Shown piece after piece: positions 1,957 through 33,629 of a stretch of DNA of 64,000 nucleotides (position 1 is the stretch's first letter; each line of letters begins with the position of its first letter). Source of the stretch: Glycomyces sp. YM15 (lineage in GTDB: Bacteria > Actinomycetota > Actinomycetes > Mycobacteriales > Micromonosporaceae); the NCBI RefSeq assembly GCF_016918015.1, contig NZ_JAERMK010000003.1, positions 1 to 64,000 of the forward strand. Direction: 5' to 3'. Below the pieces are notes generated by a model, which saw nothing but the letters and a program-made list of their open reading frames with translations, searched no databases and was not told the DNA's origin. Both the position numbers and the translations under genes were made by a program.

Positions 1957-3315
1957 TCACGTCCAGGCGAGCAGTGTTTCCCCAGGGTGCTGCAGGAACG
2001 AACCGACGTCGGCGAGGAACTGCGAGCCGAGTTCCCCGTCGATCAACCGGTGGTCGAAGGCCAGCCCGAGCGTGGTCACCTGACGGACGGCGATCTCGCC
2101 CTCGTGCACCCACGGCTGCGGCCGTACGGCGCCGAACACGAGGATCGCCGATTCCCCCGGAGGGAGGATCGGGGTGCCCGTGTCGATGCCGAAGACGCCG
2201 ACGTTGGTGATCGAGATGGTCCCGCCGGACATGTCGGCGGGCGAGGTCTTCCCCTCGCGGGCGGTGCTCGCCAGCGAGGTGAGGGCGTCGGCGAGTTCGA
2301 CCAGGCTCAGGTCCTGGGCGGCCTTGACGTTCGGGACGACCAGGCCGCGCGGGGTGGCGGCGGCGATGCCGAGGTTCACGTCGTGCTTGACGACGATCTC
2401 CTGGGCCGCTTCGTCCCACTGGGCGTTGATCATCGGGTGGCGGCGGGCGGCCAGCAGGACCGCCTTGGCCACGAACAGCAGCGGAGTGACCTTGACGTCG
2501 GCGAACTCCTTGCGGCCCTTGAACGCCTTGACCGTCTCCATCATGCCGGTGACGTCGCAGGTGAGGAACACCGTGGCGTGCGGCGCGGTGAACGCGGAGG
2601 CGACCATGTTCTGCGCGGTGAGCTTGCGGACGCCCTTGATCGGGAGGCGCTGGTCCTCCGCCGAAGCGGTGACCTTCGCCGGGGCCGCCGCGGCCGGGGC
2701 GGCCACGGCGGCTTCGACGTCGGCTCGGGAGACCGTGCCGTTCGGTCCGGTCGGGACGACCGAGGCGAGGTCGATGCCGAGATCCTTGGCGAGCTTGCGC
2801 ACCGGGGGCTTGGCGAGCACCGGTCCCGACGGAGCGGGGGGAGCCGCGGGTGCCGGGGCGGGAGCCGCCGGGGTCGGCGGTGCGACCGGGGCGGGAGCGG
2901 CGACCGGGGCGGGAGCGGCGACCGGGGCGGGCGCCGGGGCGGGCGCCGGGGCGGGCGGAGCCTCGCCGGAGCGGCGTTTGCGGCGCTTCGAGCCGGCTTC
3001 GCGCGCGCCGTACCCCACGAGGTTCGGCGTGCGTTCGTCCTTCTTCTTCTCGGCCGGGGGCGCCTCGACGCCTTCGACCTCGAAGCTCGCCAGCGGCCGC
3101 CCGACGTCGATCGTCTCGCCCGCCTCGGCGTGGTGCTCGGCGAGCACCCCGTCGTAGGGGCTGGGCACCTCGACGAGCGCCTTGGCGGTCTCGACCTCCA
3201 CGAACGGCTGGTTGAGCTTGACTTCGCCGCCCGGCTCCACGAGCCATGCGGCGACCTCGCCCTCGGTGAGTCCCTCACCGAGGTCGGGCAGGTTGAACGT
3301 GATCCTCTGACCCAT
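1957..3315 (-). CDS. bkdC: 2-oxoacid dehydrogenase E2 component (dihydrolipoyl acyltransferase)
   Basis: This is the core acyltransferase of a branched-chain 2-oxoacid or pyruvate dehydrogenase complex. It transfers the acyl group from lipoamide to CoA. Residues 1-77 are a lipoyl domain with the lipoylated Lys45 in VETAKALVEV. A Pro/Ala linker of ~55 residues follows, then a peripheral-subunit-binding domain (VRKLAKDLGIDLASVVPTGP), a second short linker and the catalytic domain ending with the active-site motif DHRLIDG. The length of 452 residues is typical for a single-lipoyl E2. The start ATG has GAGGAG upstream and lies 10 bases after the E1 beta stop, so it is the last gene of the operon. 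No E3 (lipoamide dehydrogenase) gene is nearby. The sequence alone does not settle pyruvate versus branched-chain specificity; the symbol follows the mycobacterial bkdABC order. Confidence 0.93.
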   Translation of the reverse strand: MGQRITFNLPDLGEGLTEGEVAAWLVEPGGEVKLNQPFVEVETAKALVEVPSPYDGVLAEHHAEAGETIDVGRPLASFEVEGVEAPPAEKKKDERTPNLVGYGAREAGSKRRKRRSGEAPPAPAPAPAPAPVAAPAPVAAPAPVAPPTPAAPAPAPAAPPAPSGPVLAKPPVRKLAKDLGIDLASVVPTGPNGTVSRADVEAAVAAPAAAAPAKVTASAEDQRLPIKGVRKLTAQNMVASAFTAPHATVFLTCDVTGMMETVKAFKGRKEFADVKVTPLLFVAKAVLLAARRHPMINAQWDEAAQEIVVKHDVNLGIAAATPRGLVVPNVKAAQDLSLVELADALTSLASTAREGKTSPADMSGGTISITNVGVFGIDTGTPILPPGESAILVFGAVRPQPWVHEGEIAVRQVTTLGLAFDHRLIDGELGSQFLADVGSFLQHPGETLLAWT

Positions 3316-3325
3316 GTCCCGCTCC

Positions 3326-4300
3326 TCAGTACTCGAGCGACCGGTCGACGGCGTCGAGCACCCGGTCCAGGTTCGGAAGGTACTCGTCTTCGAGGCGGCT
3401 CGCCGGATAAGGCACGTCGTAGCCGGTCACCCGCAGGACGGGCGACTCCAGGGAGTAGAAGCACTCCTCGGAGATCCGCGCGGCGACCTCGGCGCCGATG
3501 CCGACGCTGCCGGGCGCCTCGTGGACGACCACGGCGCGGCCGGTCTTGCGGACCGACGCGAACAGCGGCTCCCAGTCGATCGGCGAGAGCGAGCGCAGGT
3601 CGACGACCTCGAGGTCCAGACCCTCCTCGGCTGCCGCGGAGGCGGCGTTCGCGGCCACGTCCACGGTGGGGCCGTACGCGATCAGGGTCGCGGTGCGGCC
3701 CTCGCGGAGGGTGCGGGCGCGGTACAGGTCCAGCCCGGCCCGCTCGGTGTCGACCTCGCCCTTCGAGTGGTAGCGGCGCTTGGGCTCGAAGAAGATCACG
3801 GGATCGTCCCCGGCGGCGGCCTGCTGGATCATCCAGTAGGCGTCGGCGGGGTTCGAGCAGGTGACGACCTTGAGTCCGGCGGTGTGCGCGAAGTACGCCT
3901 CGGGGGACTCCGAGTGGTGCTCGATCGCGCCGATGCCGCCGCCGTAGGGGATGCGCACGACCACGGGCAGGCGCACGCGCCCGCCCGAGCGGTTCGGGAT
4001 CTTCGCGAGCTGGGAGACCAGCTGGTCGAACGCGGGGTAGACGAAGCCGTCGAACTGGATCTCGCAGATCGGCCGGTAGCCGCGCAGGGCGAGGCCGATC
4101 GCGGTGCCGATGATGCCCGACTCGGCGAGCGGGGTGTCGATGATGCGGTCGGAACCGAAGTCCTTCTGCAGGCCGTCGGTGACGCGGAAGACGCCGCCGA
4201 GGCGGCCCACGTCCTCACCCATGACGAGCGACTTCGGCTGGTCCTCCAGGACGCGGCGCAGGCCTTCGTTCAAGGCCTTGATCATGGACATGGCGGTCAT
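3326..4300 (-). CDS. bkdB: 2-oxoacid dehydrogenase E1 component, beta subunit
   Basis: This is the beta subunit of the thiamine-diphosphate-dependent E1 decarboxylase, 324 residues, full length for the family. It contains the transketolase pyrimidine-binding region (VMGEDVGRLGGVFRVTDGL, DTPLAESGIIGTAIGLA, CEIQFDGFVYPAFDQLVSQ) and the conserved IPYGGGIGAIEHHSESPEAYF segment, followed by the transketolase C-terminal domain (VVDLRSLSPIDWE; VVHEAPGSVGIGAEVAA). The start is the ATG of an ATGA overlap with the E1 alpha stop, so the two subunits are translationally coupled, as expected for an obligate alpha2beta2 tetramer. A longer open frame upstream is only the antisense-like shadow of E1 alpha. 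Confidence 0.95.
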   Translation of the reverse strand: MTAMSMIKALNEGLRRVLEDQPKSLVMGEDVGRLGGVFRVTDGLQKDFGSDRIIDTPLAESGIIGTAIGLALRGYRPICEIQFDGFVYPAFDQLVSQLAKIPNRSGGRVRLPVVVRIPYGGGIGAIEHHSESPEAYFAHTAGLKVVTCSNPADAYWMIQQAAAGDDPVIFFEPKRRYHSKGEVDTERAGLDLYRARTLREGRTATLIAYGPTVDVAANAASAAAEEGLDLEVVDLRSLSPIDWEPLFASVRKTGRAVVVHEAPGSVGIGAEVAARISEECFYSLESPVLRVTGYDVPYPASRLEDEYLPNLDRVLDAVDRSLEY

Positions 4301-5451
4301 CGGGCGTCGCTCCCTTCCTCGAGGGAGGCCTGGAACTCGACGGCCTCCGCCCGCTGGGCCGCGATGCCGGGGGGCATCTCGGCGTACACGTTGTCGAACA
4401 TCTCGGTGATCTCCGGGTCGGTGAGCGCCATGACGCGGGCGCGCAGCGCCCGGACCTGCTCGCCGGCCTCGGTGTCGACCTCGGCGAAATAGGACTCGTC
4501 GGCCAGGCCCTCGGCCGCCAGCCACTTGCGGTAGCGGACGATCGGGTCCTTCGCGCGCCAGAAGTCCAGCTCGGCCTCGTCGCGGTAGCGGGTGGCGTCG
4601 TCGGAGGTCGTGTGCGGCTGCATCCGGTACGTGTAGGCCTCGACGAGGCTGGGGCCCTCGCCGCGGCGGGCGCGGTCGAGCGCGGACTGCGTGACCGCGT
4701 AGGTCGCCAGGACGTCGTTGCCGTCGACGAGGACGCCGGGGACGCCGAAGCCCTCGGCGCGGCGGTACGGCGGCAGCCGGAACTGGCGGGCGTTCGTCTC
4801 CGAGATCGCGTACTGGTTGTTCTGGCAGAACAGCACCAGCGGGGAGTTGAACACCCCGGCCCAGATCAGCGCCTCGTTGAAGTCGCCCTCGCTGGTCGCG
4901 CCGTCGCCGTGGTAGACCACGACGGCCTCGCCGTCCTCGTTGCCCACCGCGCCGTCCATGGCCACGCCCATGGCGTAGCCCGCGGCGTGCAGGGTCTGGG
5001 AGGCGATCACGATCGCGTACATGTTGAAGCGGTCGGCGGCGACGTCGCGCCCGCCGAGGTCGGTCCCGCGGAAGAGCGCGAACGACGAGATGAGGTCGAT
5101 GCCCCGGCACCACTGGACGCCGAGCTCCCGGTAGGCCGGGAAGACCGTGTCCTGGGGTTTGAGGGCCCGGCCGGAGCCGACCTGCGCGGCCTCCTGGCCG
5201 AGGAGGCTCGGCCACAGGCCGAGCTGGCCCTGGCGCTGCAGGGCCGTGCCCTGGGCGTCCAGTTCGCGGGTGATGACGAGGTCGCGGTAGAGGCCGCGGT
5301 ACTCATCTTCGGTGAGGGAGATGTCGTAGTCGGGATGCTTGACGCGCTGACCCTCCGGAGTCAGCAGTTGCACGAACTCTGGTTCGTTCGCTGAGGCGGG
5401 TTTCGGACGGCTCTTGGCCGTCTTCTTGGCAGGACGCTGTGTGTCGCCCAT
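4297..5451 (-). CDS. bkdA: 2-oxoacid dehydrogenase E1 component, alpha subunit
   Basis: This is the alpha subunit of the ThDP-dependent E1 enzyme, 384 residues. The ThDP/Mg motif runs from HGDGATSEGDFNEA to FCQNNQYAIS (about 181-216), the usual GDG-(N)25-NN signature. The QGQLGLWPSLLGQEAAQVG segment is typical of actinobacterial BkdA/PdhA. I chose the ATG at 5451 because GAGGAGG lies five bases upstream and the family begins near here. An in-frame ATG 27 codons further upstream would add an unrelated peptide. The first ~22 residues are basic (KKTAKSRPKP) and probably disordered. It is the first gene of the E1 alpha-E1 beta-E2 operon; its promoter should lie in 5452-5640, which is also upstream of the divergent gene at 5645. 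Confidence 0.94.
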   Translation of the reverse strand: MGDTQRPAKKTAKSRPKPASANEPEFVQLLTPEGQRVKHPDYDISLTEDEYRGLYRDLVITRELDAQGTALQRQGQLGLWPSLLGQEAAQVGSGRALKPQDTVFPAYRELGVQWCRGIDLISSFALFRGTDLGGRDVAADRFNMYAIVIASQTLHAAGYAMGVAMDGAVGNEDGEAVVVYHGDGATSEGDFNEALIWAGVFNSPLVLFCQNNQYAISETNARQFRLPPYRRAEGFGVPGVLVDGNDVLATYAVTQSALDRARRGEGPSLVEAYTYRMQPHTTSDDATRYRDEAELDFWRAKDPIVRYRKWLAAEGLADESYFAEVDTEAGEQVRALRARVMALTDPEITEMFDNVYAEMPPGIAAQRAEAVEFQASLEEGSDAR

Positions 5452-5644
5452 GTATGCCTCCTCATATTCGTATTCCGGTGTATCCAAGCATCCCAAAGTC
5501 TTGGGTGGTGCGCGCCATAGCCGTCGCCCCATTACTATTCGGGATTAAAGACTGACACTCAGTAGTCGACTTCGGCTGGGCCATCGACATCATCGGTCCT
5601 GAACGGCCGTTTCGTCGCACGGGGGTGGCAGGAAGGGGGACGCG

Positions 5645-6250
5645 GTGAGCGGCAGAGGCAGCGACCAGGGGGGACGCTGGCCGGTGGGCATCTGGTTCGC
5701 CATGGTCGGCGTGAGCGCCGGAACCGTGGCGTCCTTCTCGCTGATCGGGTGGACCTTCGCGAGGAACCTCTACGGCGGCGACGACGGCACCGAACCCCTC
5801 CACTACGAGCCGCAGACCGTGGTCATCGAGGCCGAGAAGACCCCCGATCCCGCGGGCGTCGCGGGCGGCGACGAGGAGCCCGCGGACCCCGCCGGACCAG
5901 GCCCCGAACCGCAGATCGCCGTCAGCCCGGCCGAACCCCAGGCCGAACGCATCGTCGAAGCCGATGCGGCCGACGAGCCCCGACTCGAACCGGAGGACGA
6001 GCCCGTCCCCGAGCAGAGCGCGCCGCCGCGCCTGGTCCCGGTCGACGAGGACGACTGCGGCCGCGAAGAAGGCGCCGAGGCACCCGAGTGGTACGACGAC
6101 TGGGACGTCGACTGGGACCACGTCCGCGGCGACGGCGACGACCGCGGCGGGCACGGCCGAGACGACCTCGAGCTGTACGAACTCGACCTGGACCTGGAGT
6201 TCGACCAGGACGGCATCGAACTCGACCTCGAACTCGAGCCCGAGGACTGA
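5645..6250 (+). CDS. Single-pass membrane protein with very acidic tail
   Basis: I do not recognise this 201-residue protein. The GTG start is preceded by AGGAAGGGGGA. A short N-terminus is followed by one hydrophobic segment (IWFAMVGVSAGTVASFSLIGW, about residues 16-36). The remaining ~165 residues are almost entirely Asp, Glu, Pro and Ala, ending in a run rich in DLDLEFDQDGIELDLELE. The charge of the tail is extreme, and its topology is unknown. It is divergent from the E1 alpha gene and alone in its orientation until the gene at 6401. Confidence 0.75.
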   Translation: MSGRGSDQGGRWPVGIWFAMVGVSAGTVASFSLIGWTFARNLYGGDDGTEPLHYEPQTVVIEAEKTPDPAGVAGGDEEPADPAGPGPEPQIAVSPAEPQAERIVEADAADEPRLEPEDEPVPEQSAPPRLVPVDEDDCGREEGAEAPEWYDDWDVDWDHVRGDGDDRGGHGRDDLELYELDLDLEFDQDGIELDLELEPED

Positions 6251-6400
6251 GCCCTCCGCGTGCCGAGCCCGACTCGCCCGAAGGAGTGACATGTGGGGAA
6301 GGCCACTCCGTAGCCGTAACTTGCATATGCGGATTGCCGTTACTCCTTCTGAGAGCGCGTCGCTGACGAACGCACACGGATTTCTGTGGGGTACAAGCAC

Positions 6401-7246
6401 ATGGACCTTTTCTCCCGCACGATGCTCGCCTGCTCGGCCGAGGCGGGCCTGACCACGACGGCCCTGACCCGGCACGTTCCCCTCCTGCGCCGCAACATCG
6501 GGCCCGGCGACCAGGTGTCCCTCCTGAGCCGCTGCGTCGGCTCCGACGGGCTCGGCAGCGGCGACCACGTCCTCATGCTCACCGGCGAGCGCCTGGTCGT
6601 CACCCGCCAGTCGCGGCTCCTCGGACGGGTCCGCCTCTGCCTCGACGCGCCCGTCGCCGCCATCGAGAACCTGCGCTGGTCCGCCGACCCGTCCGGGCCC
6701 GGCGTCGAACTCAACTTCACCGTCCTCGAAGGACCCGGCTCGACCGAGCCGCACCGCTGGCACTTCTGGCTGCCCGCGACCCACGCCAAGCGGGTCTGGC
6801 GGATCGACGCGCTATTGGCGCGCGCGTTCCGCCGCCCCAAGGCCGACTCCCGGCCCGCGAACGCCCGCACCGTGCAACCGTCGATATTCGCCGATCTCGA
6901 CCTCGTCGACGACGCGGCGGCGCAAGAGCGAACCGAGGACACCGTCTCCCTCGTGCGGCCGGCGCTCGTACGGGCCGCACTGGCCGAGGTGATGCCGGTC
7001 GGTTCCGGCCACCCGGCGAGCCCGTTCCCGGCACCGAATCCGCGCCTCACCGCCACGACCCCCGGAACGGAGCTCGCGCTCCGGCAGTCGCAGCGCTCGT
7101 TCCTGCCGCCCGTGGTCGACTCCGACGACCGCCCCGCGCTTCCCGTGCGCGACACCGCGACCAACACGAACCGGCCGCGCCTCGCGCCGCCCCGGCCGGC
7201 AGGCTTCCAGCCGTCCGGCTTCAAGACCACCATGGCCGCCGTGTAG
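6401..7246 (+). CDS. Hypothetical protein with PH-like fold segment
   Basis: This is an unknown protein of 281 residues. The segment LGSGDHVLMLTGERLVVTRQ through PHRWHFWLP (about residues 45-125) has the pattern of a bacterial PH/GRAM-like domain: a beta strand carrying 'LT.ERLVVT', then a strand/loop/strand meander and a closing helix (HAKRVWRIDALLARAFR). The C-terminal ~140 residues are low complexity. I preferred the ATG at 6401; a GTG at 6386 would add five residues. Membrane association through the PH-like domain is inference only. Confidence 0.7.
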   Translation: MDLFSRTMLACSAEAGLTTTALTRHVPLLRRNIGPGDQVSLLSRCVGSDGLGSGDHVLMLTGERLVVTRQSRLLGRVRLCLDAPVAAIENLRWSADPSGPGVELNFTVLEGPGSTEPHRWHFWLPATHAKRVWRIDALLARAFRRPKADSRPANARTVQPSIFADLDLVDDAAAQERTEDTVSLVRPALVRAALAEVMPVGSGHPASPFPAPNPRLTATTPGTELALRQSQRSFLPPVVDSDDRPALPVRDTATNTNRPRLAPPRPAGFQPSGFKTTMAAV

Positions 7247-8264
7247 GGCGGAGCCCCTGCTGAGACCAGGGTGCGGGCAGTGCGGGCGATTCGCGAACGC
7301 CCCGGCAGGCGCGGTCCGCATCCTCGACCCGATCCCCCCGAAGTCCGAAGGGCCGGTGAACCAGCGCTGCTGGTTCACCGGCCCTTCGGTTGATCCGGGG
7401 GGCAGGCTCCCGGGGTGCCCCGCGCCGGTCGGGGGTGCAGCACTTGACGGATCCGCCGCCCTTCTTGAGCTCGGAGAGGTCGACCGGGACGGGCTCGTAC
7501 CCGGCGTCGCGCAGCTTCTTGGCGAAACCGGCGGCTTCGGCGTTGATGACGACGTTGCGGCCGTCCGAGACGAAGTTCAATCCGAAGCCGGCGGCGTCCT
7601 CGGCGTCGGCGAGCACCGCGTCGGGGAAGAGCCGTTCGAGCAGCAGGCGGCTGCCCGGGGCGAAGGCCTCGGGGTAGTACGCGATGCGCTCGTCGTCGAG
7701 GGGCGCGAGCGCGGTGTCGAGGTGGTAGTAGCGGGGGTCGACCAGGCGCAGCGAGACGACGGGGCGGCCGAACACGTCGGCGGCCTCGGCGTGGGCGCGA
7801 GCGTCGGTGCGGAAGCCCCAGCCGGCGAGGATGAGCTCGCGGCCGGGCAGGTAGGTGAAGTCGCCTTCGCCTTCGTTGATGAACTCGGGTTCGGCGTATG
7901 CCCAGCCGGAAGTGCGGTACCACTTCTCGTGGGCGTCGGCCTCGGGGCGGCGTTCGGGGTAGCGGAAGCTCGCGCCGTAGGCGATGCCGTCGACGACGAA
8001 GGCGCCGTTGGCGGAGTAGACCATGTCGGGGAGGCCGGGTTCGGGCTCGAGGCGGACGACCTCGTGGCCGAGGGCGGTGTAGGCGTCGGCCAGGGCTTCC
8101 CACTGGGTGCAGGCGAGCGCGGCGTCGACGGGGGCGGTCGTGTCCATCCAAGGGTTGATGGCGTACTCGACGGCGTAGTAGGCGGGGCGGCACATGAGGT
8201 ACGTGCGGCGGCCGGGCGACCGGGTCGCGGGCGCCGCGGCAGGTGAAGAACGGTGTTTCTCCAT
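7221..8264 (-). CDS. ddaH: DDAH/amidinotransferase family hydrolase, 3' end probably frameshifted
   Basis: This belongs to the pentein superfamily (dimethylarginine dimethylaminohydrolase-like; enzymes of this type deiminate or hydrolyse guanidino compounds). The catalytic core is complete: PDMVYSANGAF, INEGEGDFTYLPG, the His motif in DPRYYHLDTALAPL, and the nucleophile region GGGSVKCCT near residue 276. Relatives end within a few residues of KCCT. Here the frame runs on for about 70 Arg/Pro/Ala-rich residues, reading straight through a 21-bp terminator stem and overlapping the stop of the gene at 6401-7246. A one-base change after KCCT would end the protein at 7375 inside that stem. The start ATG has no Shine-Dalgarno but sits exactly six bases after TAAACT, fitting a leaderless transcript. 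The core assignment is firm; the C-terminus is doubtful. Confidence 0.82.
   Translation of the reverse strand: MEKHRSSPAAAPATRSPGRRTYLMCRPAYYAVEYAINPWMDTTAPVDAALACTQWEALADAYTALGHEVVRLEPEPGLPDMVYSANGAFVVDGIAYGASFRYPERRPEADAHEKWYRTSGWAYAEPEFINEGEGDFTYLPGRELILAGWGFRTDARAHAEAADVFGRPVVSLRLVDPRYYHLDTALAPLDDERIAYYPEAFAPGSRLLLERLFPDAVLADAEDAAGFGLNFVSDGRNVVINAEAAGFAKKLRDAGYEPVPVDLSELKKGGGSVKCCTPDRRGAPREPAPRINRRAGEPAALVHRPFGLRGDRVEDADRACRGVRESPALPAPWSQQGLRPTRRPWWS
7345..7389. terminator. Bidirectional terminator between convergent genes
   Basis: A perfect 21-bp inverted repeat, CCGAAGGGCCGGTGAACCAGC / GCTGGTTCACCGGCCCTTCGG, surrounds a three-base loop. There is no U-tract, as is usual for actinobacterial terminators. 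It sits between the convergent gene at 6401-7246 and the expected end of the DDAH gene. Confidence 0.85.
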
Positions 8265-25583: not shown

Positions 25584-27062
25584 ATGGAGCACACCGAAGA
25601 GGACACTGTGCCTCTGCACCGGCCGGATGCTCCAGGGTGGTCGCCGTTCGCGCCGCCAGGCGCGAACCATGAGCAGAGCGCGCCGCCAAGCGCGAACCAT
25701 GAGCAGAGCGCGCCGCCAAGCGCGAACTATGAGTACAGCGTGCCGCCGGCCGCGAACCATGAGTACAGCGCGCCGCTGGAGGCGAACGAGCGGTTTCACG
25801 CGTCTTCGGAAGTGCAAGAGCAGCACAGCGCCCCTGAGGACGTCATGAACCAGCCGTACAGCGCCGTGGCCGAGTCGATCCGCAATCCGCGGCACGGCGA
25901 CCATGTGCCGAGCGCCCCGCCGCCACCCGCGACCCCGATGCCCGGCCCGGCCTCCTCTTACGAGTCGCCGCCCGCCCAGTACGAGGTCCCGCGCGAGTCC
26001 CGGGGCGGGAACGGCTGGCCCGCCGCCCCGGGGACGGCCGCGCCGGATCACCAGGTCGGCGCGCCTCCCGCACTGCCCGCGCGCGTCCCGGTCCCGGTGT
26101 TCCCCGACCACGCGGGCGCGCTCGAGCGCCTCGGCGTGACCGCGGACGACTTCTCGTCCCGCAGGGTCGTGCCGCCGCGCCCGCCCGTGGCCGAGACCGG
26201 CCTGCGCGGTGCGCTGCACCGCTTCAGCCTCGGCATGGTCGCCCTGCCGCCCGGCCCGCGCGAGCGGTCCCGCCAGCGCGCGGTCGACACGGTGCGCCGC
26301 AACTTCGGGGGGCTGCGGCAGATCACGGTGGTCAACCCGAAGGGCGGCGCGGGCAAGACCGTCGCGGTCCTCATGCTGGCCATGACGTTCGGCCGCCACC
26401 GCGGCGGCTACGTGCTCGCCTGGGACAACAACGAGACGCAGGGGACGCTGGGGATGCGCGCCCAGCAGGACTTCCATGTGCGCACGGTGCGCGATCTGCT
26501 GCGCGACCTCGACCATTTCCGGGGCCCGACCGGGCGCATCGGGGATCTCTCGCAGTACGTGCGCGCGCAGGGCGGCGCGATGTTCGACGTGCTCGCCTCG
26601 GACGAGTCGGCGACGGCCGGGGAGATGCTGACTTCGCAGGCGTTCGGCGAGCTGCGCGAGGCGGTGTCGCGCTTCTACAAGCTCATCGTGGTAGACACCG
26701 GCAACAATGTGCGGGCGGCGAACTGGCAGTCGGCGATCGATGCGACCGATCAGCTGGTGGTGACGATGTCGGCTCGCAACGACTCGGCGGAGACGGCGGC
26801 GCGGATGCTCGACCATCTGGAGCAGACCGGGCGCCGGGACCTGGTGCGCGGGGCGGTGTCGGTGGTGTCGATGCCCGCCCACCGCAAGGATGTGGACCTG
26901 CCCGCGGTGCAGCGGCACTTCGCGGCCCGCACGAGGGCGGTCCTGCTGGCGCCGTATGAGAAGCTGCTCGACTCGGGGGAGCCGATCCGCTACGACTCGT
27001 TGAGCAAGGCGTCGTCTGCGGCCTGGCTGCGGATCTCGTCGGCGGTCGCCGAGGGCCTGTAG
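25584..27062 (+). CDS. MinD/ParA-like P-loop ATPase with repeat-rich N-terminus
   Basis: This is a 492-residue protein; GGGAGG precedes the ATG. Residues ~23-70 are tandem decapeptides of the form SAPPSANHEQ, followed by a long Pro/Ala-rich disordered region to ~residue 190. The C-terminal ~250 residues are a MinD/ParA ATPase: VVNPKGGAGKTVAVLML (deviant Walker A, about residues 248-264), VLAWDNNETQGTLG, LIVVDTGNNVRAANW (Walker B) and SARNDSAETAARML. The layout, a Pro-rich tail plus a MinD-like domain lacking a ParB partner, resembles ESX-associated EspI-type proteins. The location beside an SF1 ATPase is notable. The 3' end overlaps the convergent TetR gene by 73 bases. Confidence 0.85.
   Translation: MEHTEEDTVPLHRPDAPGWSPFAPPGANHEQSAPPSANHEQSAPPSANYEYSVPPAANHEYSAPLEANERFHASSEVQEQHSAPEDVMNQPYSAVAESIRNPRHGDHVPSAPPPPATPMPGPASSYESPPAQYEVPRESRGGNGWPAAPGTAAPDHQVGAPPALPARVPVPVFPDHAGALERLGVTADDFSSRRVVPPRPPVAETGLRGALHRFSLGMVALPPGPRERSRQRAVDTVRRNFGGLRQITVVNPKGGAGKTVAVLMLAMTFGRHRGGYVLAWDNNETQGTLGMRAQQDFHVRTVRDLLRDLDHFRGPTGRIGDLSQYVRAQGGAMFDVLASDESATAGEMLTSQAFGELREAVSRFYKLIVVDTGNNVRAANWQSAIDATDQLVVTMSARNDSAETAARMLDHLEQTGRRDLVRGAVSVVSMPAHRKDVDLPAVQRHFAARTRAVLLAPYEKLLDSGEPIRYDSLSKASSAAWLRISSAVAEGL
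25651..25790 (+). repeat. 30-bp in-frame tandem repeat
   Basis: Four contiguous 30-bp units (25651-25770) of the type CGCCGCCAAGCGCGAACCAT + GAGCAGAGCG and a decayed fifth (to 25790). Units 1 and 2 differ at a single base; later units show more substitutions. Each encodes a decapeptide in the ParA-like protein. Confidence 0.9.
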
Positions 27063-27658
27063 GCGGCGAGGAGTGCGACGAGTCCGGCCGCGGCGTCGGC
27101 GAGGCGGTGTTCGTCCTCGTCGGCGTGGCCGAGGACGAGCGCGCCTTGGATGAACACGAGGACGGTGCGGGCCAGCTGTTCGTGGTCGGTCTCGGCGTCC
27201 ATCTCGCCGCGCTCGACCGCCCGTGCCAGGATCGCGGCGAGATCGCGTTCGAGTTCGGTCCAGGCCTCCTGGACGCGGCGCATGGTCGCGGGGTCGTCGG
27301 CGAGTTCGACCGCGGCGCGCACCACGAAGCCGCCTTCTTTGGAGTGGCGGGCGACCACGTCAAGGAGGTCGGCCACGGCGCGTGGGGCGTCGAGCCGCTC
27401 GCTTTCCTTGCGGTCGAGGGCGCGGTGGGTGATCGAGCGCAGTTCGGGTTCGGTGTCCTCTCGGTAGCGGCCCAGTGCCGTGATGTAGAGCTGGTGCTTG
27501 GAGCCGAATGCGGCGTAGAGCCCGGCGCGGTTCATGCCGGTCGCCGCGACGAGGTCCGACATGGAGGTGGCGGAGAATCCGCGTTCCAGGAAGACCCGTG
27601 TCGCAGCGCGCAGAACTCTGTCCAAATCGGCGTTCTTATTTCTGCTCACGTTGTGCAC
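26990..27658 (-). CDS. TetR-family transcriptional regulator
   Basis: This 222-residue repressor has an N-terminal TetR helix-turn-helix: RVLRAATRVFLERGFSATSM, DLVAATGMNRAGLYAAFGSK and HQLYITALGRY. The C-terminal ligand domain is of the common TetR_C type (ELERDLAAILARAVERGEMD). The start is GTG at 27658 or, if leaderless, the GTG at 27649, seven bases after TACGGT. Its 3' end overlaps the convergent ParA-like gene by 73 bases. The target is unknown; it is divergent from the cobalamin riboswitch region and could control itself through the imperfect palindrome ACGGTGCACAACGT at its start. Confidence 0.9.
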   Translation of the reverse strand: MHNVSRNKNADLDRVLRAATRVFLERGFSATSMSDLVAATGMNRAGLYAAFGSKHQLYITALGRYREDTEPELRSITHRALDRKESERLDAPRAVADLLDVVARHSKEGGFVVRAAVELADDPATMRRVQEAWTELERDLAAILARAVERGEMDAETDHEQLARTVLVFIQGALVLGHADEDEHRLADAAAGLVALLAAYRPSATADEIRSQAADDALLNES

Positions 27659-27796
27659 CGTATCGACACCCGGTGCTACGGGTCAATAACCGGAAGGCGG
27701 GAGTTCACTCGCGTGGTGCGAGTGAACGGCTGCACTGCGCGACCGGTCGGCTTGACACCCAGCGAATCCACCCGCGAGAATGACCCAAACTCAACA

Positions 27797-27930
27797 GGCG
27801 CCAGATGGGGGAAGTCCGGTGAGAGGCCGGCGCTGACCCGCAACGGTAGTCGCGGTCGTCCCAGAACGACAGCCGAGCACCCTTCAAGCCGCTCGGTCCA
27901 CCCGCGTGAGCCCGAATACCCGTCTGCGCC
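27797..27930 (+). promoter_or_regulatory. Cobalamin (B12) riboswitch
   Basis: The conserved core is unmistakable: GGGGGAAGTCCGGTGAGAGG, then CCGGCGCTGACCCGCAACGG, with CGACAGCCGAGCACC between helices and the B12-box-like AGCCCGAATACCCGTC near the end. The ends pair as P1 (GGCGCCAGATG with CGTCTGCGCC, one bulge). It lies 92 bases before the TTG of the first gene of the transporter operon, so cobalamin should repress the operon; the last 90 bases would hold the expression platform. Confidence 0.93.
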
Positions 27931-28022
27931 AACAGTTCTGTCAACGCCTGTCGTGGTCTACAGGCGCTTGCGGCGCCGCCGCCTGCCCGAAGACCCCACT
28001 CGCTCTATGAAAGGTCAGGCAA

Positions 28023-29246
28023 TTGCGTCACCTGCCCGGTCGACTGCTGGCCGCTGCCGCGGTCGTGCCCATCACCGTCTTCGCCTCCGCCGCCCCGGCT
28101 GAGGCCCAGGAACCCCCGTTCGCGCAGCCCGCCCAGGCCGCCGCGTCCTGGCTCGTCGGCCAGTCCGACGGCACTTCGTGGAACGGCGGGGACGTCTCGT
28201 CCTCGCTCGACGCCGTCATCGGACTGGAGGCCGCCGGCGTCGGCGGCGACCAGGTCCAGGCCACGCTCGAGTGGCTCAACAGCACCGAGATCCTCACCCC
28301 GTACGTGTACCCGACCGTCGAGGGCGCGGCCGAGCCCGTGTTGAACGCCGGTGCGGCCGGGAAGGTCATGTACGCCGTCGCGACCGCCGGCGGGGACCCG
28401 TCGAACTTCGGCGAGATCCGCCTCGCCTCCGAGGTCGCGGCCGCGCAGACCGCGACCGGGACGTACGGGGACGGCACCGCGCCGTCGACCGCGTGGGCCG
28501 TGCTCGGCCTCTCGCGCACCGACACCCCGGCCGGCGCGGAAGCCGCTGCCGGACTCGCCGCGGTCCAGTGCCCTGACGGCGGGTTCAACTACGCCGACGT
28601 CGACGGCGGCGACGACTGCGTCTCCGACCCCGACACGACCGGGCTGGTCGCCTCGGCGCTCGTGACGCTCGGCGAGCCGGGTTCGGCTCCGCTGGCGTCC
28701 GCCGTGGCGTGGCTCGAGGGCGCGCAGGCCGAGGACGGCGGCTTCGACGGCGGCTTCGGCGAGAACGCGAACTCGACCGCGATGGCCGCGCAGGCGTTCT
28801 TCGCGGCCGGGAACGAGGACGCCGCCCAGAGCGCCGTCGCGTTCCTCATCGCGCTGCAGTTCGACTGCACCGGCGACCAGCCGGGCGCGGTCATGTACAC
28901 CGACCCGGAGGACCCCGAGTTCGGGGAGGCCTCGCGTCTGCTGGCGACCGCGCAGGCCATGGTGCCGCTCGCGGGCCAGGACCTCGCGAACCTGGACGCC
29001 TCGGGCCTCGAGGCCGCGGTGCCGGGCAACGGCTGCGAGAGCGCCGACGCCGGTGACGACGCCACGGGTGCCGCCGAGGAAGAGGACGAGGGTTCGGCCT
29101 CGTGGCTGCCTTGGGTGATCGGCGCCGCGGTCGTGGTGCTGGCCGCGCTGATCATCGGCTTCGCGCTCAAGGCCCGCCGCGGCGGTGCCGCTCCGGCCGA
29201 GGACGCGACGCCCGCGACTGCCGACGACGACACCGACAAGCAATAG
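28023..29246 (+). CDS. Surface-anchored alpha-toroid (prenyltransferase/transcobalamin-like) protein, B12-regulated
   Basis: This 407-residue protein begins at TTG (AAAGGT upstream), which exactly opens a Sec signal peptide (MRHLPGRLLAAAAVV to PAEAQE). The mature part consists of alpha-alpha toroid repeats of the terpenoid-cyclase/prenyltransferase type: AASWLVGQSDGTSWNGG, AVQCPDGGFNYADVDGG, WLEGAQAEDGGFDGGFGE and NSTAMAAQAFFAAG. The C-terminus is an acidic spacer, one TM helix (PWVIGAAVVVLAALIIGFAL) and a basic tail. Animal intrinsic factor and transcobalamin have the same toroid fold as their larger cobalamin-binding domain. Directly behind a cobalamin riboswitch and ahead of an ECF transporter, a cell-surface B12-capturing role is likely (inference). 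No catalytic residues of true prenyltransferases are evident. Confidence 0.85.
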   Translation: MRHLPGRLLAAAAVVPITVFASAAPAEAQEPPFAQPAQAAASWLVGQSDGTSWNGGDVSSSLDAVIGLEAAGVGGDQVQATLEWLNSTEILTPYVYPTVEGAAEPVLNAGAAGKVMYAVATAGGDPSNFGEIRLASEVAAAQTATGTYGDGTAPSTAWAVLGLSRTDTPAGAEAAAGLAAVQCPDGGFNYADVDGGDDCVSDPDTTGLVASALVTLGEPGSAPLASAVAWLEGAQAEDGGFDGGFGENANSTAMAAQAFFAAGNEDAAQSAVAFLIALQFDCTGDQPGAVMYTDPEDPEFGEASRLLATAQAMVPLAGQDLANLDASGLEAAVPGNGCESADAGDDATGAAEEEDEGSASWLPWVIGAAVVVLAALIIGFALKARRGGAAPAEDATPATADDDTDKQ

Positions 29247-29274
29247 TCGGCACGTGCCCCGAAGCGAACGAATC

Positions 29275-29311
29275 GCAGGCAGCGCCCGCCGGTCCGGCGG
29301 GCGCTGCCTGC
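29275..29311 (+). terminator. Strong hairpin between the two surface-protein genes
   Basis: A perfect 16-bp stem GCAGGCAGCGCCCGCC / GGCGGGCGCTGCCTGC with a five-base loop, 29 bases after the first gene's stop and without a U-tract. It may partially terminate transcription or stabilise the upstream mRNA so that the toroid protein is made in excess. Confidence 0.7.
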
Positions 29312-29448
29312 GCGCTCATCCATCGAGCGGCGCCGCCGCGCCCCGAAGCGCCGTCGTGCTCGGCGGCGGTGTCGCACCTCGATGGGACCCTTGGTCTCGG
29401 GGGCGTCCCGATCGGACACACCCGACCCCGGGGAGCGGGTCCGTCGCG

Positions 29449-30006
29449 TTGGCGACCGCACTGCTCCTGGCGCTCCTCGCCGTCGTCCTGCCCGCCTCGC
29501 CCGCCGCGGCGCACGACGGGTGCCTGGAAGTGACCGTGGTGGTCGACTTCGGGGTGCTCGCCGCCGATCCCGCGACCGGGTGCGCGGTCGACCCGGCGAA
29601 CGGCCTCGACGCGCTCGCGCAGGCCGGATTCTCGGTCACCGAGGTCGCCTCGATCCGGGGCATGGTCTGCCGGATCGACGAACTCCCCGAAAGCAGCTGC
29701 GGCGGGGCCCCGCCCGCGAAGGAGTACTGGTCGTACTGGCGCGCCGACGCCGAGAGCGACGAATGGTCGTACTCGCCCGTCGGCGGCGGCGACGCCCGCC
29801 CGGACACGGGCGACGTCGAGGGCTGGGCCTTCGGCGACGGCTCGACCCCGCCCGCCCTCACCCCTGCCAAGGCCGCGGCATCGACCGAGGGGCGCGGGCC
29901 CGGCGCGGACGAGGAGACCTCGTTCACCTGGGTCATCGCCGCGGCCGCACTCGTGGTCATCGCCGGGCTCGTCGTCTGGCGCCTGCGCCGCGACCGGCGG
30001 GCGTGA
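29449..30006 (+). CDS. Membrane-anchored DUF4430-like (transcobalamin beta-domain-like) protein
   Basis: The protein has 185 residues with the chosen TTG start, which opens a signal peptide (ALATALLLALLAVVLPASPA before AAHDG). The mature domain has the pattern of DUF4430, the small beta domain of transcobalamin: NGLDALAQAGFSVTEV, GMVCRIDELPESSCGG, KEYWSYWRADAESDEW and DVEGWAFGDGS. One Cys pair (VCRID, SSCGG) plus two earlier Cys (GCLEV, TGCAV) could form disulfides. A C-terminal TM helix (FTWVIAAAALVVIAGLVVW) and basic tail anchor it. The start is uncertain: no start codon has a good ribosome-binding site, and an in-frame GTG at 29356 is an alternative. The stop overlaps ecfT (GTGA). Confidence 0.8.
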   Translation: MATALLLALLAVVLPASPAAAHDGCLEVTVVVDFGVLAADPATGCAVDPANGLDALAQAGFSVTEVASIRGMVCRIDELPESSCGGAPPAKEYWSYWRADAESDEWSYSPVGGGDARPDTGDVEGWAFGDGSTPPALTPAKAAASTEGRGPGADEETSFTWVIAAAALVVIAGLVVWRLRRDRRA

Positions 30007-31115
30007 GCGGGAACCGCGAAACCGCCGTGAGTCTGAGAGCCGCCCGACACGTCGCCCATCCGGCGGCCTGGTGGGGCTGGGCGCTCCTGCTCGCCACCGC
30101 CGCCGGGCGCACCGCGAACCCGTGGCTGCTGCTGCTCATCGTCGCCGTCGCGGGCCTGGTCGTCACCTGGTGCCGCGGCGACGAACCGTGGTCCGGCGCG
30201 TACCGGGTCTTCCTGTTCATCGGGTTGAGCGCGATCGCGGTCCGCATGGCGTTCTACATGGTCTTCGGCGGGTCCGACGGCCCCACCGTCCTCTTCTCCC
30301 TCCCCTCTGCGACCCTCCCCGCTTGGGCGGCGGGCTTTCGGCTCGGCGGCGACGTGACCGCCGAGGGCGCGCTCGCGGCCGCTTACGACGGCCTGCGGCT
30401 CGCCACGCTCCTCGTCTGCGTCGGCGCCGCGAACGCGCTCGCGAGCCCTCGGCGGCTGCTGCGCTCGGTCCCGGCGGCGCTGTACGAGGTGAGCGTCGCG
30501 GTCGTCGTCGCGCTGTCGGTCGCACCGCAGCTCGTCGCGAGCGTCGGACGGGTGCGCCGCGCGAGAGCGTTGCGCGGCAACACGAGTCGCAGCCCCGCGA
30601 ACCTCATGCGCACGGTGGTCTCGCCGGTGCTGCACGACGCGCTCGACCGATCGCTCGCGCTCGCGGCCGCGATGGCCTCGCGCGGGTACGGCCGCGCCGC
30701 GGGCATCCCCGCCCCGGCCCGCCGCGCCACTGGCGCATCGCTCCTCATCGGACTCCTCGGGCTCTGCGCGGGTGCTTACGCGCTCCTCAGCGCGGCGACG
30801 CCCGCCCCGCTCGCCTGGGCCGCCGTGGCCTGTGGCGCCGCCGTAGCGGTGTTCGGGATCGCGTTCGCCTCCAAGCGGGTCCCGCACACCCGCTACCGCC
30901 CCGACCGGTTCGGGGCACGCGACTGGGCGATCGTCGCCTCCGGCGCCGCGGCCGTCGCCGGGACCATCCTCAGTGGAGTATTCGAACCCGCGGCGCTGTG
31001 GCCCGCCACGAACCCGCTCTCGGTGCCGGAACTGCCGATGTGGGCCGCGGGCGGCATCCTCCTCGCCACCGCGCCCGCCCTGCTCGCGCCGTCTTCAAGA
31101 GGAGGAACACCATGA
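30003..31115 (+). CDS. ecfT: ECF transporter transmembrane component EcfT
   Basis: This 370-residue membrane protein couples the ATPases to the substrate-binding S component. It has several hydrophobic segments (WWGWALLLATAAGR, WLLLLIVAVAGLVV, YEVSVAVVVALSVAPQLVAS, LLIGLLGLCAGAYALLSAA, and a C-terminal one). The two Ala-Arg-Gly-type coupling motifs are visible as RRARALRGN and AAMASRGYGR. The GTG start overlaps the preceding stop (GTGA); the stop overlaps the ATPase gene (ATGA). It is longer than an average EcfT (~260), mainly by extra hydrophobic segments at the C-terminus. Confidence 0.9.
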   Translation: MSGNRETAVSLRAARHVAHPAAWWGWALLLATAAGRTANPWLLLLIVAVAGLVVTWCRGDEPWSGAYRVFLFIGLSAIAVRMAFYMVFGGSDGPTVLFSLPSATLPAWAAGFRLGGDVTAEGALAAAYDGLRLATLLVCVGAANALASPRRLLRSVPAALYEVSVAVVVALSVAPQLVASVGRVRRARALRGNTSRSPANLMRTVVSPVLHDALDRSLALAAAMASRGYGRAAGIPAPARRATGASLLIGLLGLCAGAYALLSAATPAPLAWAAVACGAAVAVFGIAFASKRVPHTRYRPDRFGARDWAIVASGAAAVAGTILSGVFEPAALWPATNPLSVPELPMWAAGGILLATAPALLAPSSRGGTP

Positions 31116-32803
31116 ACCCCGACGGGATCGCCTTCGAACACGTCACCTTCGCCTACGCGGGCACGCCCGTCCTCGACGACGTCTCGTTCGACCTCCCCGA
31201 AGGCGAGTTCTGCCTGCTCGTGGGGCCCACCGGAGCCGGCAAGTCGACGCTGCTCAAAGCCGTCAACGGCCTCGTGCCGCACTTCACCGGCGGCACCATG
31301 GCCGGGCGGATCACCGTGGCCGGACGCGACGTCCACGGCTCCACCCCCGCCGACCTGGCCGACCTCGTCGGCTACGTCGGCCAGGATCCCTTGGCGGGCT
31401 TCGTGACCGACGAGGTGGAACGCGAGCTCGCGTACACCGCCGAGCAGCTCGGCGTCGACCCCGCCGCGATGCGCAAGCGGGTCACCGAGATCGTGGACCT
31501 CCTCGGTCTCGCCGACGTACGCGACCGCGACCTCGCCGCCCTCTCCTCCGGTCAGCGCCAACGGGTCGCGATCGGTGCGGCCCTCGTCGCCGGGCCCGCC
31601 GCGCTCGTCCTCGACGAGCCGACCTCCGCGCTCGACCCGACCGCCGCCGACGAGGTGCTCTCGACGCTGCACCGCCTCGTGCACGACCTCGGCGTCACGG
31701 TGCTCCTCGCCGAGCACCGCCTCGAACGCGTCGCCCAATACGCCGACTCAGCGCTGCTGCTCAACGGCGGGAAGGTGACCGCGGGCTCGGTCGGCCAGAT
31801 CTTGGCCGCGTCCCCGATCGCCCCGCCGGTCGTGGAACTGGGCCGCCTGGCCGGGTGGCCCGGCCCGCCCGTCACGATCCGCGAGGCCAGGCGCCATGCC
31901 GCTCCGCTCCGCGAGGCCCTGGCAGGACGGCACCCCGCGCCACCGGCAGCGCCTTCCGCCCACGAGCCCTCCCGCCGCAAGAGCCCGCCGACCGAGTCCG
32001 GGCCGCCGCTGCTCGAAGCCCGCGCGGTCACCGTCGACTACCCGGGCGGCGTGCGGGCCGTCAACGGCGCCGACCTCACCGCCGCACGTTGCGAACGCAT
32101 CGCCCTCATGGGCCGCAACGGCTCCGGCAAGTCGAGCCTCCTCTGGGCCTTGCAGGGCACCGGAAAGCGCTCGGGCGGCACGGTCACGATCGGCGGCGAC
32201 GACCCCGCGACCCGCAAACCGGCCGAGCGCCGGACCCTCGCCGGTCTCGTCCCGGCCGAACCCGCCGACCTCCTCTACGCCGAGACCGTGGCGGCCGAAT
32301 GCGAAGGCGCGGACCGCGACGGCCGCGTTCCGGCCGGCACCTGCGCGAAGATCCTCGACGACCTCGTCGAAGGCATCGACGGCGGCACCCACCCGCGCGA
32401 TCTGTCGGAAGGCCAGCGGCTCGCGCTGGCCTTGGCCGTGACCCTCACGGCCGCACCGCCGCTGCTGCTCCTCGACGAGCCGACGAGAGGCCTGGACTAC
32501 CCGGGCAAGGCGGCGCTCGCGTCCCGGCTCGGCAGACTCGCCGCGGCCGGGCACTGCGTGGTCGTCTCCACGCATGACGTGGAGTTCTGCGCCGAATTCG
32601 CCTCCCGGGTCGTGATCCTCTCCGACGGCGAGGTGGTCGCGGACGGCCCGGCCCGGCAGATCGTCGCGGCGTCCCCGATGTTCTCCCCGCAGGTCGCCAA
32701 GGTCCTCCCGGGCTGGCTGACCGTGGACGAAGTAGCGGAGGCTCTGGGCGGCAACGGCCTCGATGACGCCGAAGGCGGGACGGACGATGACGCACGAGCG
32801 TGA
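31112..32803 (+). CDS. ecfA: ECF transporter ATPase, two ABC domains fused
   Basis: This 563-residue protein contains both ECF ATPases in one chain. Domain 1 (residues 1-240): Walker A VGPTGAGKSTLLK, Q-loop GYVGQDPLAGFV, signature ALSSGQRQRVAIG, Walker B ALVLDEPTSALDP and switch His in LLAEHRLERV. A Pro-rich linker follows (about 275-300). Domain 2: Walker A MGRNGSGKSSLLW, signature DLSEGQRLALALA, Walker B LLLLDEPTRGLDY and VVSTHDVEFC. GAGGAGG-like GGAGG precedes the ATG in the ATGA overlap with ecfT. A short Q-loop region in domain 2 (GLVPAEPADLLYAE) lacks the usual Gln, so the two sites may be asymmetric. Confidence 0.93.
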   Translation: MNPDGIAFEHVTFAYAGTPVLDDVSFDLPEGEFCLLVGPTGAGKSTLLKAVNGLVPHFTGGTMAGRITVAGRDVHGSTPADLADLVGYVGQDPLAGFVTDEVERELAYTAEQLGVDPAAMRKRVTEIVDLLGLADVRDRDLAALSSGQRQRVAIGAALVAGPAALVLDEPTSALDPTAADEVLSTLHRLVHDLGVTVLLAEHRLERVAQYADSALLLNGGKVTAGSVGQILAASPIAPPVVELGRLAGWPGPPVTIREARRHAAPLREALAGRHPAPPAAPSAHEPSRRKSPPTESGPPLLEARAVTVDYPGGVRAVNGADLTAARCERIALMGRNGSGKSSLLWALQGTGKRSGGTVTIGGDDPATRKPAERRTLAGLVPAEPADLLYAETVAAECEGADRDGRVPAGTCAKILDDLVEGIDGGTHPRDLSEGQRLALALAVTLTAAPPLLLLDEPTRGLDYPGKAALASRLGRLAAAGHCVVVSTHDVEFCAEFASRVVILSDGEVVADGPARQIVAASPMFSPQVAKVLPGWLTVDEVAEALGGNGLDDAEGGTDDDARA

Positions 32804-33629
32804 GCCGGGGCCCGAGACCGCGGCGCCTCCGCTGGGGCAGCGCCGGGCCGCGGCGCCGCGCCCGCCCGTCCGCTGGAAGGCGGCGCTGTCGCTCACGCTC
32901 GCGGCCGCGTTCGGCCTGGTCGCGATGTCATGGCCGCTGCTGGCGGCGCCGGGCGGGGCGCTCACCGAGACCACCTCGGGCCCTTGGCTGTTCGCGCTGC
33001 TGCTGCCGCTGGTCACCGCAGTGGTGCTGCTGCAGTTGACGGACGGCGGTCTCGACGCTCGCGCCGTGGCGATGCTCGGGGTGCTCTCGGCGGTGGTGGC
33101 GGCGGTGCGGCCGTTCGGGGCGGGCGCGGCCGGGGTGGAGACGGTGTTCTTCCTGCTCATCTTGGCGGGCAGGGTGTTCGGGCCGGGGTTCGGGTTCATA
33201 CTGGGCTGCACGGGCCTGTTCGCGTCGGCGCTGCTCACGGGCGGGGTGGGACCGTGGCTGCCGTACCAGATGTTCGCGGCGGCGTTCGTCGCGCTAGGCG
33301 CAGGCCTCTTGCCGGGGACGCCGGACACGCGGGCCGGCCGCGCGACCGAACTGGCGATCCTGGCGGTCTATGCCGCCCTCTCGTCGATCCTGTATGGACT
33401 GCTGCTCAACTTGTCGTTCTGGCCCTTCGCCATCACGCACGGGAATCTCGCCTACGTGCCGGGCGGCGGTTTCAGCGAGAACCTCTCCCGCCTGCTCGCG
33501 TACTCCCTCGCCACCTCGCTGGGCTGGGACATCGGGCGCGCGATCACCACGGTCGCACTGGTGCTCCTGACAGGCCCGCTGCTGCTGCGCGTCATGCGCA
33601 GAGCCGCCCGCCGCGCGAACTGGATCTAA
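32787..33629 (+). CDS. ECF transporter substrate-binding S component, probably cobalamin
   Basis: This 280-residue integral membrane protein has about six hydrophobic helices (ALSLTLAAAFGLVAMSWPLL, WLFALLLPLVTAVVLLQL, TVFFLLILAGRVFGPGFGF, LPYQMFAAAFVALGAGLLPG, LAILAVYAALSSILYGLLL, ITTVALVLLTGPLLLRVM). The GFILGCTGLFASALLTGGVG + PWLPYQM segment is typical of vitamin-type S components. I chose ATG 32787, which overlaps the ATPase gene by 17 bases; an ATG at 32763 is possible. Specificity for cobalamin (or a corrinoid precursor) is inferred from the riboswitch at the head of the operon, comparable to CbrT/CblT-type S components. Confidence 0.87.
   Translation: MTHEREPGPETAAPPLGQRRAAAPRPPVRWKAALSLTLAAAFGLVAMSWPLLAAPGGALTETTSGPWLFALLLPLVTAVVLLQLTDGGLDARAVAMLGVLSAVVAAVRPFGAGAAGVETVFFLLILAGRVFGPGFGFILGCTGLFASALLTGGVGPWLPYQMFAAAFVALGAGLLPGTPDTRAGRATELAILAVYAALSSILYGLLLNLSFWPFAITHGNLAYVPGGGFSENLSRLLAYSLATSLGWDIGRAITTVALVLLTGPLLLRVMRRAARRANWI

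Follow-up and report, generated by a model that had tools for sequence, protein, structure and literature searches.

Two membrane-tethered, transcobalamin-like surface proteins encoded with an ECF transporter behind a cobalamin riboswitch in Glycomyces sp. YM15: a probable corrinoid import operon

Animal transcobalamin (TC), intrinsic factor (IF) and haptocorrin (HC) combine an alpha/alpha toroid with a beta-grasp domain of the transcobalamin type. The SLBB superfamily was defined by Burroughs et al. in 2007 (PMC1796856), whose accessible text includes bacterial transcobalamin-like proteins with the toroid fused at either end, and operons with CbiO- and CbiQ-like genes, some of them with a second extracellular SLBB protein. 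The clade is given there a range of low-GC Gram-positives, planctomycetes and, less often, euryarchaea, and B12 scavenging and lateral transfer to animals are proposed; going by that text, B12 scavenging by toroid/beta proteins encoded next to CbiO/CbiQ was already predicted for low-GC Gram-positives in 2007. The words riboswitch, Streptomyces and permut- are absent from the main text of the paper, and no split toroid/SLBB pair is mentioned in the parts available. Here, an operon is described from a 64 kb stretch of DNA (hereafter, the window; contig NZ_JAERMK010000003.1, positions 1 to 64,000) of the soil actinobacterium Glycomyces sp. YM15. It is quite probably a riboswitch-controlled operon for the import of corrinoid (vitamin B12), in which two transcobalamin-like tethered halves feed an importer of the energy-coupling factor (ECF) type. 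New are an actinobacterial family missed by Pfam DUF4430, its occurrence as two separate tethered chains controlled by a B12 riboswitch, and the circular permutation of both halves together.

The operon resembles animal TC, IF and HC in its two kinds of domain, and these proteins are the top fold matches in the PDB; it differs from animal transcobalamin in being bacterial, in having two tethered chains, in standing beside an ECF importer and in being jointly permuted in one branch. A secreted SLBB domain, toroid fusions in some members and CbiO/CbiQ-type neighbours are shared with the 2007 clade, whereas the actinobacterial beta family described here lies below Pfam DUF4430 detection. The uncharacterised NCBIfam family NF040672 (SCO2322 family) contains homologous beta proteins that share the operon neighbours and the riboswitch and are circularly permuted with respect to the window beta protein; the latter scored 36.0 bits against it, in two stretches and in permuted order (cut-off 85), which leaves it outside the family. 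BtuG, BtuH and the DUF4465 proteins have other folds. These proteins of Bacteroidetes and others likewise bind B12 at the surface for uptake and, according to the accessible text of the sources, serve outer-membrane uptake systems, unlike the operon here (PMC6143338, PMC8941943, PMC13398666). ECF-CbrT of Lactobacillus delbrueckii is also an ECF-type importer for B12; the gene of its S component sits in an nrdJ-cbrS-cbrT-pduO cluster, and surface clamp proteins are not mentioned in the portion of the paper available (PMC5997447). When human TC-alpha and TC-beta are produced as separate proteins, they come together only once cobalamin is added, as far as the source could be consulted (PMC5599065), and by analogy this would be the strongest outside support for a clamp closing over cobalamin. 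In the accessible part of a companion review, circular permutation is noted for the E1/UFD domain and not for the transcobalamin type (PMC1949818).

The earlier note on this DNA, made from the letters alone, knew of no characterised actinobacterial system of this kind. This stands for open papers, in which no description of an actinobacterial toroid/beta pair was found (subscription journals lay largely outside that search); the low-GC toroid/beta prediction (PMC1796856) was left unmentioned there. Actinobacterial B12 import seems little described in searchable papers, mycobacterial BacA aside (PMC10960864, accessible text).

The operon lies on the plus strand (27752-33629) and comprises, in order, a promoter-like site, the cobalamin riboswitch and genes for the toroid protein, the beta protein, EcfT, a double EcfA and the S component (TM, transmembrane):

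27752..27781, + strand: sigma-70-like promoter TTGACA-18-GAGAAT (10/12 consensus matches; shuffled-region mean 0.1; a consensus match only)
27785..27941, + strand: cobalamin riboswitch aptamer RF00174 (32.5 bits, gathering score 31.5; conserved core aligned in A10)
28023..29246, + strand: surface protein 1, toroid, with signal peptide, alpha/alpha toroid and C-terminal TM anchor
29274..29312, + strand: intercistronic hairpin of 18 perfect pairs (z -5.35)
29449..30006, + strand: surface protein 2, beta, with signal peptide, transcobalamin-type beta-grasp and C-terminal TM anchor (start codon provisional)
30030..31115, + strand: EcfT, CbiQ family, transmembrane coupling subunit (PF02361 35.2 bits, cut-off 25)
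31112..32803, + strand: EcfA with two fused ABC ATPase domains (two ABC_tran stretches; AGGAGG ahead)
32763..33629, + strand: ECF S component, putatively corrinoid-specific (PF12822 E 1.1e-4, below cut-off)

This is the layout that the earlier note had read: a cobalamin riboswitch, two signal-peptide proteins each with a C-terminal TM anchor, then EcfT, a double EcfA and EcfS. The riboswitch, which exceeds its gathering score, was recovered in all genus genomes (see below). Each surface protein has a C-terminal hydrophobic segment followed by basic residues, and an N-terminus judged by eye to be signal-peptide-like. The CbiQ match and both ABC_tran stretches agree with the ECF assignment, and the S component reached 22.7 bits against ECF_trnsprt, below the cut-off of 30.7. 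The S component is 52-94 % identical to 17 relatives that keep the same place in homologous operons. EcfT, the EcfA pair and the S component thus occur together, as in a dedicated-operon ECF system, and the presence of CbiO-like and CbiQ-like genes is shared with the SLBB transcobalamin-like clade. The closest named relatives of the window beta protein are 17 Glycomyces loci (top identity 81 %).

RF00174 was the sole Rfam match to reach its gathering threshold in the window, and, since its score is marginal, conservation across genomes was used as the test. An RF00174 match (E <= 4e-4) was located 79-153 nt upstream of the toroid match in 22/22 genus genomes, 10 of these matches reaching the gathering score, and the toroid and beta proteins were both present in 22/22. 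Each of the two was also found in 6 of the 19 further genomes searched from the family or order, with two weak matches among them; by coordinate comparison, RF00174 also lies ahead of the pairs in G024, G026 and G032 and of both pairs in G022, which has two riboswitches. The own genome has two cobalamin riboswitches in total, the second of which (99.3 bits) precedes metE (L001, G000:C23:164929-168135); this gene was identified from its translation as encoding the methionine synthase that is independent of B12.

When the SCO2322 family, which is homologous to the beta protein, was searched for across the class, 67/148 genomes matched, and 40 loci were fetched from 39 of the 67. Riboswitches were sought in the loci with a profile of the core, as a strict regular expression matched just 44/140 loci. 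The core occurred <=800 nt upstream in 36/40 SCO2322-family loci, some of which had trained the core profile; RF00174 itself was present in 34/40 (coordinate comparison). A second search, with the beta alignment, was independent of riboswitches, and the best 80 of 211 relatives were retained as loci. In 69/80 of these beta-fetched loci the core was found within 800 nt upstream of the toroid or beta gene on the same strand, with 3 further core sites elsewhere and a best E of 0.76 in shuffled loci. Four of the 11 loci without a core begin near a contig edge (L120, L130, L181, L184). The toroid gene, where present, is mostly the first behind the riboswitch, and EcfT was encoded <=1.5 kb downstream of the beta gene in 67/80 loci, 6 more being cut off. 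A chance riboswitch match was rejected on the 22/22 genus genomes and the 69/80 loci. The pair therefore occurs, with some exceptions, mostly beside B12 riboswitches and ECF genes, as the gene-neighbourhood survey suggested by the earlier note was meant to find out, and such operons are widespread in actinobacteria.

The AlphaFold model of the window beta protein (42 alignment rows) had a predicted local distance difference test (pLDDT) of 86.3 and a predicted template modelling score (pTM) of 0.70. DSSP assigned strands at 28-33 and 42-46, a helix at 52-58, and strands at 63-65 and 73-76 (hairpin), 93-100 and 122-129. Judged by element order, not superposition, the model contains the beta-hairpin insert between the helix and strand 3 that is a trait of the SLBB transcobalamin-like clade. 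The first ten PDB matches of the model in Foldseek were all transcobalamin, among them human TC-beta (5no0; prob 1.00, E 3.4e-3, TM-score 0.62 by target). RUMGNA_00854 of Ruminococcus gnavus (3u7z), HC and IF ranked next, and unrelated folds lower in the list had prob <=0.20. Surface protein 2 is thus predicted to be the C-terminal beta-grasp domain of the transcobalamin family as a separate protein. At the sequence level, neither it nor its family had a match in the PDB.

The DUF4430 pattern that the earlier note ascribed to surface protein 2 holds by fold and by profile-profile comparison, but not by direct search, as Pfam DUF4430 (PF14478) at E<=1 had no match in the window beta protein or the own genome. 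Comparison of the beta family (alignment A2) with DUF4430 proteins of other Actinomycetota (A12; 17/30 DUF4430 loci, those with an open reading frame and the motif) by hhalign gave a colinear alignment with Prob 92.6 and E 4.4e-7, and two unrelated control profiles gave Prob 0.1 each. A PDB sequence search with DUF4430 returned nothing useful. Two further alignments, A8 (41 rows) and A9 (32 rows), both counted besides the first row, were drawn from loci L113-L192; the rows of A9 were picked so that beta rows aligned to the beta domain, and A7, with misplaced beta rows, was unused. Around 12 chosen DUF4430-hit loci, 9 had an S component profile match, 5 a toroid match and 3 neither. One Streptomyces-type locus (an inferred label) carries both kinds of beta protein: L223 (G128, 954-8134) encodes a riboswitch core, an unpermuted beta protein, EcfT, EcfA, EcfS, a toroid and a true Pfam DUF4430 protein, the last adjoining a divergent riboswitch core. 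A second Streptomyces-type Pfam DUF4430 protein (L224, G078, 6598-7316) stands directly behind a cobalamin riboswitch core.

Surface protein 1, described earlier as an alpha-toroid with 'Q..DGGF' repeats, does contain them (QCPDGGF, QAEDGGF), and matched Pfam SQHop_cyclase_C with E 1.5e-4, under the cut-off of that family. The profile of its family matched squalene-hopene cyclase (7.3e-26), terpene cyclases, farnesyltransferase and complement C3d in the PDB, i.e., the alpha/alpha toroid superfamily. The link to the transcobalamin family is provided by hidden Markov model (HMM) homology to the toroid of L134 (5110-6516), a gene of a Propionibacteriaceae metagenome-assembled genome (MAG) that encodes a single chain of signal peptide, toroid, beta domain and TM segment behind a riboswitch core. 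The AlphaFold model of L134 (pLDDT 85.0, pTM 0.66) had TC, HC and IF as its first twelve PDB matches (best E 2.1e-9), with terpene cyclases ranking lower; the matches span 428-444 alignment columns and therefore cover both domains. By its family profile, which matches toroid proteins, and by HMM homology to the toroid of L134, surface protein 1 is predicted to have an alpha/alpha toroid of the transcobalamin family. A toroid and a beta domain in one chain, toroid first, are found in L134, and the window has them in two genes; its pair is taken to work like transcobalamin, with homologous halves, and is not classed as a member of the family. The fold relation of the pair to transcobalamin, proposed by the earlier note together with a comparison of predicted structures with the human protein, was accordingly upheld by the window beta model and the fused L134 model, both of which match transcobalamin first.

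Six natural fusions were found. The order is toroid-beta in L134, whereas L040 and L159 have beta-toroid, extended by a second toroid (beta-toroid-toroid) in L136, L153 and L172. The last three are Kitasatospora/Streptomyces genes, each behind its own riboswitch core. L040 (6539-8260) has an LPETG-type anchor and a degenerate aromatic motif in its beta domain, and neither a riboswitch nor ECF genes were detected nearby. Of all the beta and toroid open reading frames (ORFs), 35/174 and 20/145, respectively, matched the window profiles in swapped order; they belong to a branch of Streptomyces-type and other relatives. In the permuted beta domain the YWSFW strand comes first and the CAI.GYP hairpin last, the opposite of the window order. 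Rotation and pairwise re-alignment to the unpermuted L108/L109 raised the score by >30 in 20/20 swapped toroids (1/30 controls) and in 28/35 swapped beta proteins (0/30 controls), the controls being random samples of 30. In an earlier HMMER rotation test, a gain of >15 bits was obtained for 25/35 beta proteins and just 5/20 toroids; the weak toroid gain results, we think, from overlap of the two toroid pieces in the model.

Permutation states were compared over 141 entries (140 loci and the window), in which some species are doubled, as several of L041-L052 are of the same species as L113-L129. Both halves were swapped in 18 entries and neither in 90. Five entries appeared mixed: L087 is truncated at a contig end, the second toroid match of L073 and L074 is unrelated, and L103 and L105, whose toroid match starts at the permuted point, are read by us as permuted with the second toroid piece undetected. 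In every entry that allowed a judgement on both, toroid and beta protein have the same permutation state. Tandem beta genes and the beta-toroid-toroid fusions would be plausible intermediates of a permutation by duplication and truncation. On the MAG contig of L171 (4439-6831), a permuted and an unpermuted beta gene are divergent, each behind a riboswitch core; no toroid was detected there.

A MetH activation (B12) domain was found in 25/25 genomes searched, 16 of these from the genus, and the corrin-ring marker CbiC, a single marker of the pathway, was absent from 13/16 genus genomes searched, the own genome included. From these gene contents, most of these bacteria are probably consumers of B12 and not producers.

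Under the proposed import function, low intracellular adenosylcobalamin would release the riboswitch and the operon would be expressed. The toroid and beta halves would be secreted and tethered outside the membrane; cobalamin would bind one half, probably beta first, and the other half would close over it. The loaded clamp would then sit above the S component and pass the ligand over, with the EcfT-EcfAA' module driving ATP-dependent import. We infer that the ligand is cobalamin, that it brings the two chains together and that it is then passed to the S component. In a more specific form, on which belief and doubt are evenly balanced, the half-clamps of a split transcobalamin would snap shut around B12 and dock onto the ECF S component as one body, and the branch with both halves permuted in step would keep the same closed shape. 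If true, the proposal names a widespread candidate B12 importer for actinobacteria and a receptor-loaded mode of ECF transport, with the clamp re-wired as a whole in the permuted branch. It would also give the intrinsic factor/transcobalamin fold a large bacterial reservoir beyond low-GC Gram-positives, and the naturally split, fused and permuted B12 clamps would make the order of clamp assembly directly testable.

Several observations weigh against this proposal. The genus riboswitch matches fell below the gathering score in 12/22 genomes, and no riboswitch core was found at seven beta-fetched loci away from contig ends (L146, L176, L180, L185, L186, L141 and L159), five of which, re-scanned with Rfam at E<=1, had no cobalamin riboswitch; L146, L176, L180, L185 and L186 are Amycolatopsis beta-protein loci with no toroid detected. 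No EcfT was in reach in 7/80 beta-fetched loci. The S component profile had no convincing PDB relative, CbrT included. Transcobalamin was not among the best 60 of 76 PDB matches listed for the toroid profile, and the toroid fold is modelled for the relative L134, the window toroid being connected to it by profile and HMM comparison. The two domains of L134 were placed unlike those of holo-transcobalamin (root-mean-square deviation ~22 A, linker pLDDT ~43); their relative placement is therefore not predicted by the model, and the clamp is not shown by it. The Foldseek E-values of the beta model are modest (best 3.4e-3, none <=0.001), Pfam DUF4430 at E<=1 matched 0/42 members of the A8 family, and the larger alignment A8 gave Prob 23.4 and E 8.7e-4 against DUF4430. 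A beta protein without a detected toroid occurred in 22/141 entries, some of them cut by contig ends, and the toroid may accordingly be dispensable. Six Peripla_BP_2 matches in the own genome leave room for a BtuF-like importer.

The beta-only entries are also the main ground for a different division of labour, in which the S component is fed by the beta protein alone as B12 receptor, and the toroid has an accessory part (as an independent second binder, a scavenger of loose corrinoids or the partner of another protein), with no clamp between chains. These entries suggest that some lineages manage with the beta half by itself; human TC-beta alone binds cobalamin, according to the accessible text (PMC5599065; PDB 5np4), and the two genes of the window stand ~200 nt apart with a strong hairpin between them. 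Such a division is nevertheless unlikely, as the halves are fused naturally in six cases and two orders, no locus demonstrably has one half permuted and the other not, and the toroid, if present, is mostly the first gene behind the riboswitch.

Somewhat less probable still is that the anatomy is as proposed but serves a corrinoid other than cobalamin, either incomplete or of a different kind (cobinamide, cobyrinate or another cobamide). In the accessible part of a review, cobyrinate diamide is given as the compound taken up by CbrUVT (PMC8123684), TC-beta also binds cobinamide in the text consulted (PMC5599065), and riboswitches indicate a response to B12 status, nothing more. The absence of CbiC from 13/16 genus genomes argues against this ligand, salvage from late intermediates being outside that test.

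CbiMNQO-type cobalt ECF systems can also be under B12 riboswitches, and the EcfT of the window matches the CbiQ family. The operon is nonetheless very improbable as a cobalt importer of this kind, which was rejected: the Pfam scan of the window proteins at E<=1 contained no match to CbiM, the S component matched ECF_trnsprt alone, the lack of CbiC in most genus genomes, the own one included, implies that little cobalt would be needed for B12, and the structures ranked first in the fold comparisons of the surface proteins are those of B12 carriers. That surface protein 1 is a secreted terpene cyclase or prenyltransferase-like enzyme unrelated to B12, as automatic annotation would have it from the squalene-hopene cyclases that head the sequence-level PDB matches of the toroid profile, is hardly credible and was rejected, given that DxDD, the acid motif of class II cyclases, occurred in 0/23 rows of alignment A1 (which read DPDTT, DVDAT and similar), that the L134 model ranks TC, HC and IF ahead, and that toroid genes are linked to B12 riboswitches.

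Minor features of the operon in the window are as follows. The toroid gene starts with TTG, where several other Glycomyces carry ATG; ecfT and ecfA overlap by ATGA at 31112-31115, and the next in-frame ATG, at 32787, is an alternative start of the S component. The intercistronic hairpin is GC-rich and without a T run. A perfect stem of >=12 pairs was found at the same intergenic place in 9/16 other Glycomyces loci examined, and no such stem in Glycomyces loci with a toroid-beta gap of about 50 nt or less. The hairpin may fix the proportion of toroid to beta protein or act as a partial terminator. The promoter-like site ends 3 nt ahead of the riboswitch match and falls just outside the start at 27797 in the earlier note. 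A divergent TetR-family regulator gene (window 26990-27658, - strand) adjoins the operon promoter on its upstream side.

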